Positions 30,800-35,447 of a stretch of 64,000 bases of DNA are shown here, piece by piece. The stretch spans positions 62,001 through 126,000 of the forward strand of contig JAKRSH010000040.1 in NCBI GenBank assembly GCA_022402465.1, read 5' to 3'. Both the position numbers and the translations under genes were made by a program. This DNA is from Leptospiraceae bacterium. GTDB taxonomy: Bacteria > Spirochaetota > Leptospiria > Leptospirales > Leptospiraceae. Under the pieces are notes generated by a model that was not told the DNA's origin, did not search any database, and saw only the letters and a program-made list of their open reading frames with translations. Position 1 is the first letter of the stretch. Every line of letters starts with the position of its first letter.

Positions 30800-31777
30800 T
30801 TATTTCCTTATCCACAAAGAATTGCAGAAGTATTGATTGCGATCAAAGTAATTTTCTAGAACTTGGAAACCATGATCTGAAGCAACTTTTTCCATATCGG
30901 AAATAGAATATTTTCTTGAGCACTCCATGTAAATAGAATCCCATTTATTGAAATTGAAAACCTTATCTATGCTCCCTATTACAACTGTACTATTTGTGTT
31001 AGCTAGAAGATAACTCTTGACCTCACCTGAAAGTGGATCATAAGAAACATGATGATCGAATTTATTTATATCAAAATTTCCATTTAACTCTCGATTGATC
31101 CTAAGTAAATGATTGAAATTAAATCTTCGTGTAATTCCTCTAGGGTCATCATAAGCAGGTAAAATGACGCTGGGTGACTTCTTCAAATCAAAACCTATGA
31201 GGAAAAAATCCTTAGGATCCAAAATATTTTTCAGATGCTCAATAAATTGATTCGTTTCTTGGTTTGAAAAATTTCCAACATTAGAACCTAAAAACAAAAC
31301 TAGTTTAGGAACGTTCTTGTACTCCGACTCCTGTTTCAAGGATTCTAATACTTGGAAATAATCGCCTACTCTTGCATCAATTTCTATTTCAGGATGATTG
31401 ATTTTGAATTTTGCCTTTAGCTCATCCAGAATATCACTGCTGATGTCTATAGGTATGTATTTCAATTGCAGTTGTGATTCTATGCAAGATTTAATAAAAA
31501 TCTCTGTTTTTATCCCATCGCCCGATCCAAGTTCTAATAATAAAATTTCATCGTATGTTAGCGAAATATGCTCTATTATTTTCTTAGAGTTTAATTCAAA
31601 AATTTCAATTTCTGCATCTGTTAGATAGTATTCAGGCATATTCATAATCTCTTGAAAGATTTTACTTCCCTCTTCATCATAAAAATACTTAGGTCTGAGG
31701 TAAGCAGGACTTGAACTTAAGCCTAAATCAGTATCAATCTGGAATTGTTCAATTGCAGTGAGAATTTGGGATTTCAT
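30800..31777 (-). CDS. egtD: L-histidine N-alpha-methyltransferase EgtD
   Basis: At 325 residues this is the length of EgtD. It trimethylates histidine to hercynine with S-adenosylmethionine, the first step in ergothioneine synthesis. Diagnostic segments: LRPKYFYDEEGSKIFQEI (EgtD signature near residue 25), PEYYLTDAE, LLELGSGDGIKTEIF (SAM site), LVLFLGSNVGNF and GFDLKKSP. The gene lies 35 bases after egtB on the same strand, so both steps are encoded together. No egtA, egtC or egtE is next to them. Confidence 0.93.
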   Translation of the reverse strand: MKSQILTAIEQFQIDTDLGLSSSPAYLRPKYFYDEEGSKIFQEIMNMPEYYLTDAEIEIFELNSKKIIEHISLTYDEILLLELGSGDGIKTEIFIKSCIESQLQLKYIPIDISSDILDELKAKFKINHPEIEIDARVGDYFQVLESLKQESEYKNVPKLVLFLGSNVGNFSNQETNQFIEHLKNILDPKDFFLIGFDLKKSPSVILPAYDDPRGITRRFNFNHLLRINRELNGNFDINKFDHHVSYDPLSGEVKSYLLANTNSTVVIGSIDKVFNFNKWDSIYMECSRKYSISDMEKVASDHGFQVLENYFDRNQYFCNSLWIRK

Positions 31778-31812
31778 TAATAATTTATTTCCTAAATTGA
31801 TTTTAAAATTCC

Positions 31813-32976
31813 TTAGTCCTTAACCAATCGGATACCATTGTATTGGTAAGCAATTTGCGGATGAAAGAAGTTTCTGTATGTACTTCGAGAATGTTCTTTA
31901 GGAGTTACAATGGATGAACCTCGCAAGACCATTTGATTGACCATAAATTTTCCATTGTATTCTCCCACTGAGCCTGCTCGTTTTTGAAATTTTGGATATG
32001 GAAGATAGGCTGACGAAGTCCATTCCCAACGCTTACCCCAAGCAAAATTCTCAGATGCCACTTCCCATTCAAACTCAGTAGGTAGCCTCAAATTTTTCCA
32101 AGATGCAAATGCTTGAGCTTCAAAATAATTGATATGCGTCAATATATCCTCACTTCGAATCTTTCGAAGTCCAGCTAGAGTATATTGGTAGTAATTAGAA
32201 TCCTTCTTCTGCCAATACATAGGCAATCCAATCTGAAGATTCTGAACAATGGACCATCCTTCATCTAACCAAAGTTCATGTCTTTTATATCCTCCATCCT
32301 CTATAAAATCTATAAACTCTTGGTTACTTACCAATTCATTGAGAATAGAAAATTCTTGCAAATAAACTTGGTGAGGTCCAAGTTCATTGTCAAAACAAAA
32401 TCCTCTTCCCTTATAACCAACATCATAATTTCCTTTGGGAATTGGAATCCAAGCCTTTGCTTGATTAGATCCATCCTCAACATAACAATCTTTCGAGTAA
32501 ATTGGTTCTAATGGATTTAGATGAAAGTTATATTTCAAATCTGTGAAAAATAATTCTTGGTGCTGCATCTCATGATGTATTCCAAGCTCTAGCAATGTTT
32601 CGATTTCTTGAAACTCTATTGGTTCAATCTTATCTTGGTTATGAAATAATTCCACTATTTGCTCATCAATAGAATTTCGATATTTATATACCTCGTCTAC
32701 GGTCGGTCTGGTCATAAGACCTCTCATTCCACGTTTCGTTCTTGCTCCAATAGAATTGTAATAACTATTGAATAAAAATCCAAATTTAGGATGAAAACTG
32801 GAATAATTTTTTATAAATTTACTTAGGATAAATTCTTCAAAGAACCAAGTTGTATGACCTAGGTGCCATTTGGGAGGACTTACAAAATCTGCTGCTTGTG
32901 GAATATAATCTTCTATAAGAAGGGGCTGCATGATTTGTTTGGTTTTATTGCGTGTTAATAGGAATTTTTCCAGCAT
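31813..32976 (-). CDS. egtB: Sulfoxide synthase EgtB (ergothioneine biosynthesis)
   Basis: The ATG at 32976 is preferred to the TTG at 33045, whose extension is not family-like. The product has an N-terminal DinB-like four-helix domain with the iron-binding WHLGHTTWFFEEF (first His) and HHEMQHQEL (next two His). A C-terminal FGE-sulfatase fold follows (KGNYDVGYKGRGFCFDNELG, LRLPTEFEWEVA, WGKRWEWTSSAY, VLRGSS). EgtB joins a thiol to hercynine with O2. Two-gene egtB/egtD sets without egtA are known and use cysteine or glutamylcysteine. Operon with egtD. Confidence 0.92.
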   Translation of the reverse strand: MLEKFLLTRNKTKQIMQPLLIEDYIPQAADFVSPPKWHLGHTTWFFEEFILSKFIKNYSSFHPKFGFLFNSYYNSIGARTKRGMRGLMTRPTVDEVYKYRNSIDEQIVELFHNQDKIEPIEFQEIETLLELGIHHEMQHQELFFTDLKYNFHLNPLEPIYSKDCYVEDGSNQAKAWIPIPKGNYDVGYKGRGFCFDNELGPHQVYLQEFSILNELVSNQEFIDFIEDGGYKRHELWLDEGWSIVQNLQIGLPMYWQKKDSNYYQYTLAGLRKIRSEDILTHINYFEAQAFASWKNLRLPTEFEWEVASENFAWGKRWEWTSSAYLPYPKFQKRAGSVGEYNGKFMVNQMVLRGSSIVTPKEHSRSTYRNFFHPQIAYQYNGIRLVKD

Positions 32977-33182
32977 AATTAAAGTCGAAAGTAAGCTCAG
33001 ATTTAGTTTCGATTTAAGAATTTTAAGATTATGATTATGATGCAATAAAATTTTATCTTTTCAATTATTTGCATGGCTTTCCTATTGATTTCATAGAGTA
33101 AAGATTAAGCATAAAATGATTTTTTTGAATTGAAATCTGTCTAAACATAGTATACTTATAAATAACTTTTTCGAGGAAATGA

Positions 33183-33467
33183 ATGAAAGCAATTTGGAAT
33201 GGTGAAATCATAGCAGAAAGCGAAGATACTATTGTAGTTGACGGAGCACATTATTTTCCAATTAACAAAGTAAAGATGAATTTTCTCAAATCATCCACCC
33301 ACAATACTACCTGTCCATATAAGGGTAAGGCATCGTATTATGATGTGGAAGTCAATGGACAAACCAATAAGAATTCCGCTTGGTATTATCCTAGCATTAA
33401 GTCTGAATCTATTAAAGAAATTGCAGGAAGAATTGCATTTTGGAATGGAGTTAAAGTAGAAAAGTAA
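33183..33467 (+). CDS. DUF427 protein
   Basis: This 94-residue single-domain protein has the complete DUF427 pattern: KAIWNGEIIAESEDTIVVDG, YFP, TTCPYKGKASYYDV, NKNSAWYYPSI, KEIAGRIAFWNGVKVE. It is a small soluble beta fold with no settled biochemical function. GAGGAA precedes the ATG. The DUF2282 bufferin gene begins 43 bases further on in the same direction, so the two may be co-transcribed, although an internal promoter is possible. Confidence 0.85.
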   Translation: MKAIWNGEIIAESEDTIVVDGAHYFPINKVKMNFLKSSTHNTTCPYKGKASYYDVEVNGQTNKNSAWYYPSIKSESIKEIAGRIAFWNGVKVEK

Positions 33468-33510
33468 ACCTTGTTTAGATAAATTGAATATATATAAGTA
33501 AGAGGAACAA

Positions 33511-33804
33511 ATGGATAAAAAGAATTTACTCGTAATGGGAACTCTGCTCGCAATGACCCAGCTAGCAAGCTACTCATCTGTTCAAGCAGCAGAACCAAAG
33601 AATGCTCAAGGAAAATGCTATGGTGTTGCAGGACCCAAGCAAGGTGACTGCAGTGGCAAAGATCCAGCTACTGGCAAGACTTGGACATGCGGTGGACAGA
33701 ATCCAACGTCTGACCTCGGCTGGAAGAAAATGACAAAAGAAGAATGCGATGCTGCTGCAAAACATAAAACAGCTAAAGCAAAAACTTTTGTAGCTAACAA
33801 CTAA
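33511..33804 (+). CDS. bufA: Bufferin-type RiPP precursor, DUF2282 (BufA)
   Basis: This 97-residue protein has a signal peptide (cleavage near VQA, residue 26). A mature part has four cysteines at 36, 47, 60 and 79 (KCYG, DCSG, TCGG, ECDA) spaced as in DUF2282 proteins. DUF2282 proteins encoded beside DUF692 enzymes are now recognised as bufferins: their Cys residues are post-translationally modified by the MNIO enzyme, and the product binds copper in the periplasm. The core cysteine spacing and the next gene fit that class. AGAGGAAC precedes the ATG. Confidence 0.85.
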   Translation: MDKKNLLVMGTLLAMTQLASYSSVQAAEPKNAQGKCYGVAGPKQGDCSGKDPATGKTWTCGGQNPTSDLGWKKMTKEECDAAAKHKTAKAKTFVANN

Positions 33805-33816
33805 TACATACAATCT

Positions 33817-34671
33817 TTGCAAACACCACGGTCTACTTTTGATTCTCAACTCATTGGCTTGTCTCTTCGAGCTGCCAATGAAAATTCTATCTTTTTAAAA
33901 GAAGTAGATTTCAGGATTATAGAAGTAATTAGTGAAAACTATAGCTACTCTAGAGGAGTAGACCGTGAAAAGTTAGTTGATCTAAGTCATGATTACCAAT
34001 TGCACCTACATGGCGTTAGTCTAAATATTGCTGGAATGGACGATTTGGATAAGAGAACTCTAAATGAGTTAAAATCTCTCCAATCAGAAACCAAGGCTTC
34101 TTACATCTCTGACCACCTTTGCTGGACTAGGCACAACCAAAGAAGCAGCTTTGACCTTTTGCCTTTTCCCTATACAAGAAAAATGATCCACCATCTCAAA
34201 GATAGAATCCACCAAGTGCAAGATGTATTAGGTTATAATTTCCTTTTAGAAAATATTTCTACTTACTTTAGATTTAAACTCGATGAAATGGATGAGATTG
34301 ATTTTCTCATTGAATTGCATGAATCCACGGGAGTAAATTTTCTTCTGGATCTCAATAATCTCTATGTTAATCAATTCAATCATGGGATTGATCCATACAA
34401 ACTTATCAACAGCCTTCCTTCATCTGCAGTAGAATTCTATCATCTGGCTGGATATTCTAACCAAGGAGATTTCTATTTCGATGCTCATGATTCTAAGGTT
34501 CCTAAGTCTGTTTGGGATCTATACCGTCTTGCCATTCAGAAATTTGGTATGCATCCAACAATTATAGAACGCGATGAAAATATTCCAAGCATACAAGAAC
34601 AAATCTCTGAAATACATTTTGCCAAGAGCCTGATTCAAGAAATAGAAAATACTACTGAGGCAATTCCTTGA
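33817..34671 (+). CDS. bufB: DUF692 multinuclear iron oxidase (BufB)
   Basis: This 284-residue TIM-barrel enzyme carries all hallmarks of the DUF692/MNIO family: IISENYS-like start (EVISENYS), LHLHGVSLNI, SDHLCWT, LLENIST, LLDLNNLYVN, VEFYHLAGY, DAHDSKVP and IIERDENIP, whose His, Asp, Asn and Glu bind two or three iron ions. It modifies cysteines of the precursor, probably to thiooxazole-like groups. The start is a TTG without a good ribosome site, 12 bases behind bufA, so translation may rely on re-initiation. The stop overlaps the next start (TTGA). Confidence 0.92.
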   Translation: MQTPRSTFDSQLIGLSLRAANENSIFLKEVDFRIIEVISENYSYSRGVDREKLVDLSHDYQLHLHGVSLNIAGMDDLDKRTLNELKSLQSETKASYISDHLCWTRHNQRSSFDLLPFPYTRKMIHHLKDRIHQVQDVLGYNFLLENISTYFRFKLDEMDEIDFLIELHESTGVNFLLDLNNLYVNQFNHGIDPYKLINSLPSSAVEFYHLAGYSNQGDFYFDAHDSKVPKSVWDLYRLAIQKFGMHPTIIERDENIPSIQEQISEIHFAKSLIQEIENTTEAIP

Positions 34672-35447
34672 TCCAAAAAGAGGATTTTGAATTTAAGGCG
34701 ATAGAAGAATTACAGAATATTTTGTATTCAGATAAATCTTCAATTGAGTATCTTCAATTCATATCTCATCCTCATCTAGATGCCATTGATGCAGTATCCT
34801 GGAAACAAGATGAAAAACTTTCCAAGAGACTCTCTTTTCTCCAATACGGCTATGGTGCTAGAACCAAAATGACATTAGAACAGTTCTTCCCTCAAACCAA
34901 AACAAGTCTTCCAGAAAAAGATTGGAACATGCTAGGATTAGAATATTCGGAATCAATTGCATCCAAATTTTCCAATATAAATGAACTCGGTTTAGATTTT
35001 CCTGAGTTCCTAGAAAATAAAAAGGTTAATTCATTAAGTATAGAATGCTCTCTAATCGAAAGATTGTGCTTTTACTCTGGAATTTCAGCTCGTGAAACTC
35101 CTATAAGTCTAGAAACCTTCAGCATGCTTGATGATGAAAGTCAATTTAAATTAAGAAATGATCTTCAAGTATACAAAGGTAAACTAGATATAGACCTTGA
35201 TGTATGGCAGTTAAGAAATTCAATACATTACTATTTAATCTATAGAGATATTTTTTCCTATCCCCAAGCACCAATCTTTATCAAAAAATTAGAAACTAAA
35301 ATCTTTGAGATACTACATTTCATTTCAACAAAAACAAACCAATCTGCGAATCTTTTATTACTCCAAGAAAATTTTGAACAAGAAGAAATTTCACAAGCTT
35401 TGTATTTTTGCTTACAGAATCATTTCTTGGTGGCTAAACAAAATTAA
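34668..35447 (+). CDS. bufC: Partner protein of the bufferin cluster (BufC-like, divergent DUF2063)
   Basis: This 259-residue mainly helical soluble protein starts at a TTG that overlaps the bufB stop. Its position as third gene, its size and its helical DUF2063-like N-terminal half (LSFLQYGYGARTKMTLEQFF and onward) point to the recognition partner that delivers the precursor to the MNIO. The sequence is more diverged than the first two genes. The C-terminal part (DLDVWQLRNSIHYYLIYRDI) resembles a PqqD/winged-helix-like region and is not clear. No DoxX-like fourth gene follows; the only one in the window is at 25033. Confidence 0.6.
   Translation: MIQKEDFEFKAIEELQNILYSDKSSIEYLQFISHPHLDAIDAVSWKQDEKLSKRLSFLQYGYGARTKMTLEQFFPQTKTSLPEKDWNMLGLEYSESIASKFSNINELGLDFPEFLENKKVNSLSIECSLIERLCFYSGISARETPISLETFSMLDDESQFKLRNDLQVYKGKLDIDLDVWQLRNSIHYYLIYRDIFSYPQAPIFIKKLETKIFEILHFISTKTNQSANLLLLQENFEQEEISQALYFCLQNHFLVAKQN

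Follow-up and report, generated by a model that had tools for sequence, protein, structure and literature searches.

Our analysis of the window (the whole 64,000-nucleotide stretch of leptospiral DNA analysed here) points to a bufferin-type RiPP operon whose precursor belongs to the Buf2 (Cys-Lys) branch and is reduced to the four cysteines that Buf1 and Buf2 have in common; its product would carry thiooxazoles at the central cysteines and would sequester copper. We give this reading as a whole a probability of about 0.64. The gene order, the homologies, the conserved residues of the enzyme, the loss of two cysteines, the presence of a paralogue and the decay of a second locus are all evident from the sequence itself.

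The four plus-strand open reading frames that the earlier note had described are indeed present: a DUF427 (PF04248) gene of 94 amino acids at 33183-33467, the bufA-like precursor gene of 97 amino acids at 33511-33804 (preceded, on direct reading, by a Shine-Dalgarno-like AAGAGGA at 33500-33506 of the same strand), bufB, which encodes an MNIO (DUF692, MbnB_TglH_ChrH; PF05114) of 284 amino acids, at 33817-34671, and bufC, which encodes a diverged PME1 partner with a DUF2063 part and a putative RRE part, at 34668-35447. The DUF427 and precursor genes are separated by 43 bases and bufC is coupled to bufB by a TTGA overlap, both as claimed, and the order bufA-bufB-bufC together with the MNIO and PME1 homologies supports the proposed bufferin-type MNIO cluster; the marks of the MNIO-PME1 class of RiPP clusters (bufferins and captophorins), namely an MNIO with its active-site residues conserved, a DUF2063 partner after it and a cysteine-containing precursor with a Sec signal peptide (here putative) directly before it, are all present. 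The DUF427 gene is the first of this putative transcription unit, and its accessory role is uncertain. No terminator is predicted between it and bufA, and the intergenic region 33046-33182, which separates it from a divergent egtB-like gene (31813-33045, minus strand), is presumed from its position only to hold the promoter; a promoter scan of this region returned sites no more numerous than in shuffled sequences. The bufA and bufB genes lie in one reading frame with a single TAA between them (33802-33817; the second locus differs), and since bufB starts with TTG and has no clear Shine-Dalgarno sequence, it is plausible that its translation is coupled to the termination of bufA. A DoxX gene is frequent in bufferin clusters, though not obligatory. 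None adjoins this one, as the earlier note had observed (the DoxX matches of the genome are on other contigs only), and no copper gene is adjacent to the cluster in the window, a point against the copper reading. Divergent from the DUF427-buf operon, and upstream of it, are ergothioneine egtD- and egtB-like genes (30800-33045, minus strand), with an EgtB match of 484 bits (cut-off 360) and an EgtD match of 272.7 bits, just below its cut-off of 290.9.

The profile search upholds the DUF692 assignment of BufB, which matches PF05114 at 2.5e-85 (286 bits, cut-off 25); the NCBIfam BufB model gives 276.6 bits, below its cut-off of 310. Comparison with 24 other leptospiral MNIOs yielded 41 near-invariant columns, 40 of which are kept in the window enzyme (the sole departure is S16 for G), in agreement with the earlier claim that its metal-binding motifs are kept. 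The Asp of ERD, which corresponds to FonB-Asp249, the proposed catalytic base (PMC13097082), is kept, and Glu254 (ERDE) is found where, in a published model of other Buf2 systems (PMC13097082), an Asp faces the Lys that follows the modified Cys. The same Glu is present in two leptospiral enzymes encoded beside ordinary Buf2 genes (L044 and L046), so that a Glu at this site is by itself no sign of changed specificity. The best MNIO matches in the named plasmids are 36–44% identical, and many of them lie in Buf2 clusters, one of which adjoins a multicopper oxidase gene. The window enzyme occupies a very long branch (3.0, against a median of 0.37). The larger of two trees separates it from the oxazolin-type enzymes with support of 100/100, though an AU test does not reject a joint clade with them (p 0.376), and across both trees and the AU tests no single grouping with Buf1, leptospiral Buf2 or oxazolin-type enzymes is favoured.

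The third gene had been described as diverged, and this is correct: PF09836 (DUF2063) does match its product, at 9.3e-5, but the 23.1 bits are just under the cut-off of 27.2, and yet a custom profile identifies it as a true PME1 relative. This profile of leptospiral PME1 proteins matches residues 61-241 of BufC with 32.7 bits (E 2.3e-9), whereas neither 200 shuffles nor the remaining open reading frames of the window score above 3.6 bits, and it also matches the solved PME1 protein 3dee. The match, which runs to residue 241, extends into the region that holds the RRE in PME1 proteins, and the RRE is putative here. The AlphaFold models made from the single sequences of BufC and BufA (pLDDT 41 and 46, respectively) are of too low confidence for a fold search. 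In 11 leptospiral genomes (L047, L051-L054, L059-L061, L063, L064 and L066) the MNIO and DUF2063/PME1 proteins are fused in one open reading frame of 530–656 amino acids, whose C-terminal half matches the PME1 profile at 4e-7 to 9e-67. These are natural counterparts of the engineered HvfBC fusion (PMC13419390); where PMC12452194 and PMC13419390 discuss fusions, they mention no natural MNIO-PME1 fusion of this kind.

The precursor has the signal-peptide-like N-terminus (about residues 1-26, with cleavage between VQA and AEP, judged by eye) and the four cysteines (Cys36, Cys47, Cys60 and Cys79) that had been ascribed to it. Its placement in DUF2282 (Buf1), on the other hand, did not stand: PF10048 scores it at 11.5 bits (E 0.3; cut-off 22.4), and with a Buf1 profile the window core reaches 8.8 bits, below the best shuffle at 13.8. 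The Buf2 profile (both profiles were built from cores of the class and of the named plasmids) gives 29.3 bits and 4.2e-8 with the same core, the best of 300 shuffles reaching 6.0, and hhalign aligns residues 1-82 of the precursor with leptospiral Buf2 (99%, 4.2e-19). The likeness is strongest in GGQN....GWKKMT..EC. NCBIfam BufA2 (NF050166) matches at 7.3e-7 with 29.3 bits, far below its curated cut-off of 60; in the 48 genomes of the class that were compared, which include no other genome of the window's own genus, this model gave 21 matches above the cut-off, and the two copies in the window's genome scored 28.7 and 28.3 bits. By sequence comparison, then, the precursor is a diverged relative of Buf2 and not a DUF2282 protein. 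It has in common with the Buf2/BufA2 precursors ('Cys-Lys' captophorins) the signal peptide, the bufABC order, the C-terminal half of the core and the MNIO and PME1 partner, but it is without Cys2, Cys5 and Cys-Lys, is below the curated cut-off and, by alignment, has a six-residue insertion in the Cys47-Cys60 stretch relative to other Buf2. That the cluster is an ordinary Buf1 bufferin cluster, merely diverged, we regard as very improbable; the four cysteines at matching columns, the KCYGVA start and the spacing of ten residues from the first cysteine to the second are as in Buf1, but 12 residues separate the second and third cysteines (6–7 in Buf1), neither PF10048 nor the Buf1 profile matches significantly, and the C-terminal half of the precursor is that of leptospiral Buf2. 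The oxazolin or EGKCG-type captophorins (HvfABC, fontiphorin) likewise have an MNIO, a PME1 partner and a Sec signal peptide, but the window precursor has no EGKCG repeats and its enzyme is outside their group in the larger tree. A tblastn search of the plasmids with the precursor gave no match, and no close relatives of the cluster were found in the named genome contigs and viral contigs. The curated DUF2282, BufA2, BufB and DUF2063 models all remain below threshold for this cluster, and the general MNIO model alone exceeds its cut-off; annotation can therefore easily overlook clusters of this kind.

Buf2 cores were collected by a profile search over all fetched loci with no cysteine requirement. 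All 35 distinct full-length cores from other genomes and plasmids have six cysteines; Lys directly follows Cys5 in every one of them and Cys2 in 34, and each core contains one to five Cys-Lys motifs. The window precursor and its paralogue contain none, and in both of them Cys2 and Cys5 are gone. According to the alignment, Cys2 is replaced by Pro in the window precursor (GPK-QGDC in place of GCKGQGDC) and NPTSDLG stands where Cys5 is otherwise embedded in NACKGQG, and the four cysteines that remain occupy the four columns that are invariant in a joint Buf1/Buf2 alignment. Buf2 has been described with six (or twelve) conserved cysteines, its modifications not being identified (PMC12452194), and the Buf2/Cys-Lys captophorins are defined by multiple Cys-Lys motifs, whose Lys is modelled as facing an Asp in the enzyme (PMC13097082). 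The window precursor by its cysteine number, and both paralogues by their motifs, fall outside these descriptions. The earlier suggestion that the cluster could be a subtype is supported by the loss of both Cys-Lys cysteines and not by the missing DoxX gene, because there are other Buf2 clusters, too, with no DoxX beside them. As a natural Buf2 relative without exactly these two cysteines, the precursor lends itself directly to asking which of the cysteines are important, and it may link the Buf1 and Buf2 families. This genome is not alone in having a reduced Buf2-like peptide: a different reduction is seen, in another genome of the class, in the peptide RGKCFDLKTCKDTNACGGQGWLYMSMDACMKAGG (L106; G022 contig 17, minus strand), which has a His- and Gly-rich tail, keeps the outer part of the core without the middle and matches the Buf2 profile partially; no MNIO was seen in its genome, which is 78% complete.

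The paralogue is encoded at a second locus (L003) on another contig of the same genome, and it is 71% identical to the window precursor over 96 residues. It is followed by the first half only of an MNIO gene, with in-frame TGA codons, and then by what is left of the partner, 43 residues. The genes upstream of it on that strand encode a YceI protein and a protein with a weak carboxymuconolactone-decarboxylase match, and a second, divergent DUF427 gene at this locus is 60% identical to that of the window. The precursor cores of the two paralogues differ by 7.5 nonsynonymous changes in 116 sites while their synonymous differences are near saturation; the cores are thus under strong purifying selection, and the two peptides have been kept for a long time although one enzyme is dead. 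What survives of the dead MNIO, its first half, has identities of 0.55, 0.70 and 0.41 with the window gene at codon positions 1, 2 and 3, respectively, a bias that argues for long selection on the MNIO enzymes. Since MAGC stands in the second precursor where the window precursor has LASY, the former may be a lipoprotein, possibly lipid-anchored, and the latter soluble. The simplest reading of these sequences is that the second precursor is probably modified in trans by the window BufBC. That an MNIO may act on a precursor whose gene lies elsewhere has been proposed as a general possibility (PMC12452194), and a live precursor beside a dead enzyme is a natural case for it.

By analogy with known systems, the window enzyme most likely converts the two central cysteines of one precursor, or of both, to 5-thiooxazoles, for the sequestration of copper in the periplasm. 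The scheme that we infer takes in the thiooxazole chemistry, the choice of cysteines, the disulphide, the copper role, the modification in trans and any role of DUF427. In the cytoplasm, a complex of BufB (an iron- and oxygen-dependent MNIO) and BufC (its DUF2063/RRE partner) would recognise the precursor, probably by its signal peptide, and would oxidise Cys47 and Cys60 to 5-thiooxazoles; Sec would export the product, the signal peptide would be removed, a disulphide between Cys36 and Cys79 would form, and the mature peptide would sequester excess copper in the periplasm. The window BufBC would also serve the second precursor, whose own enzyme is dead. Oxidation of Cys to 5-thiooxazole by BufBC-type enzymes entails a loss of 4 Da each (PMC13419390, PMC13097082), and installation of this group is broadly the activity of the MNIO-PME1 type (PMC13097082). 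Buf1 carries its modifications on the central pair of cysteines, and its outer two are joined in a disulphide (PMC12452194); because the window peptide keeps the four-cysteine set of Buf1, Cys47 (33649-33651) and Cys60 (33688-33690), which by the alignment bound the plus-strand segment 33649-33690, are predicted as the modified residues. This choice is uncertain, since the precursor has no Cys-Lys and yet the enzyme keeps the acidic Glu254 at the Lys-facing site.

Three other readings bear on this scheme. It is unlikely, in our estimate, that the system is decaying, with the cysteine loss, the dead second MNIO and the long branch as stages of loss and a precursor that is poorly modified or not modified at all. 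The in-frame stops and lost second half of the second MNIO, the remnant of its partner and the length of the window enzyme's branch would fit such a course, as would the lack of an MNIO in all seven other compared members of the same family, but all three window genes are intact, the enzyme retains its near-invariant residues, and the tight constraint on the precursor cores at near-saturated synonymous sites and the codon-position bias in the dead copy both speak of long selection. Quite improbable, we think, is a different modification, or the modification of other cysteines, or a response to another metal or stress (for example gold, mercury or oxidative stress), DUF427 being perhaps a part of the pathway; the lost Cys-Lys motifs, the unsettled position of the MNIO in the trees, the DUF427 genes beside both precursor genes and the links of the family to gold, mercury or oxidative stress (PMC13097082, PMC12452194) would agree with it, but the enzyme clearly belongs to the MNIO-PME1 type, with the broad thiooxazole-installing activity noted above. 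A further bufferin architecture, with a Buf2 scaffold free of the Cys-Lys cysteines, an enzyme acting on the central cysteines, two precursors (one soluble and one lipid-anchored) served in trans and DUF427 as a lineage-specific accessory, is possible, and we put it forward tentatively.

The DUF427 protein of the window matches PF04248 at 1.2e-29 and the solved DUF427 protein 3djm at 5.7e-9. The genome holds exactly two DUF427 and two bufA genes, which are paired at the two loci, which lends circumstantial support to the proposal that DUF427 is an extra member of the cluster; the linkage is seen in this genome only, as in no other genome of the class that carries an MNIO was a DUF427 gene found near it, and a literature search returned no paper linking DUF427 with these families. 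With a neighbourhood of about 4 kb per bufA gene in a genome of 4 Mb, independent placement of the two pairs would be very unlikely, but if both loci descend by duplication from a single cluster, only one coincidence is required, with a chance of some one to two in a thousand by our estimate. We treat DUF427 as a lead only.

Downstream of the second precursor locus, on the opposite strand, is an ECF sigma factor gene (PF04542, PF08281), beside which a small Cys-containing protein with no Pfam match, which may be an anti-sigma factor, is encoded. Relatives of this sigma factor (36–38% identity) adjoin bufA in four Turneriella-like genomes, in one of which the gene overlaps the bufA stop. In L070 (1498-2559), L061, L063 and L064 a Turneriella-like six-cysteine bufA, or its MNIO fusion, precedes an ECF sigma gene and the gene of a small protein with cysteines. 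No convincing promoter motif is common to the two loci and the ECF gene. Sigma factors have not been reported near Buf2 (PMC12452194); the idea that they are special to leptospires was dropped, because on Asticcacaulis and sphingomonad plasmids sigma and DUF1109/NrsF-type genes also adjoin Buf2 clusters (L087, L092, L094 and L100). Several leptospiral Buf2 precursors (L044, L046, L047 and L029-L032) have a Cys after a hydrophobic stretch (for example LAASC or LMSC), which suggests that lipidated bufferins may be common in the class. In L044 and L046 two bufA genes flank one PME1 gene downstream of the MNIO gene, and one bufA of each pair has extra N-terminal cysteines (CTPGADK.CGEC).
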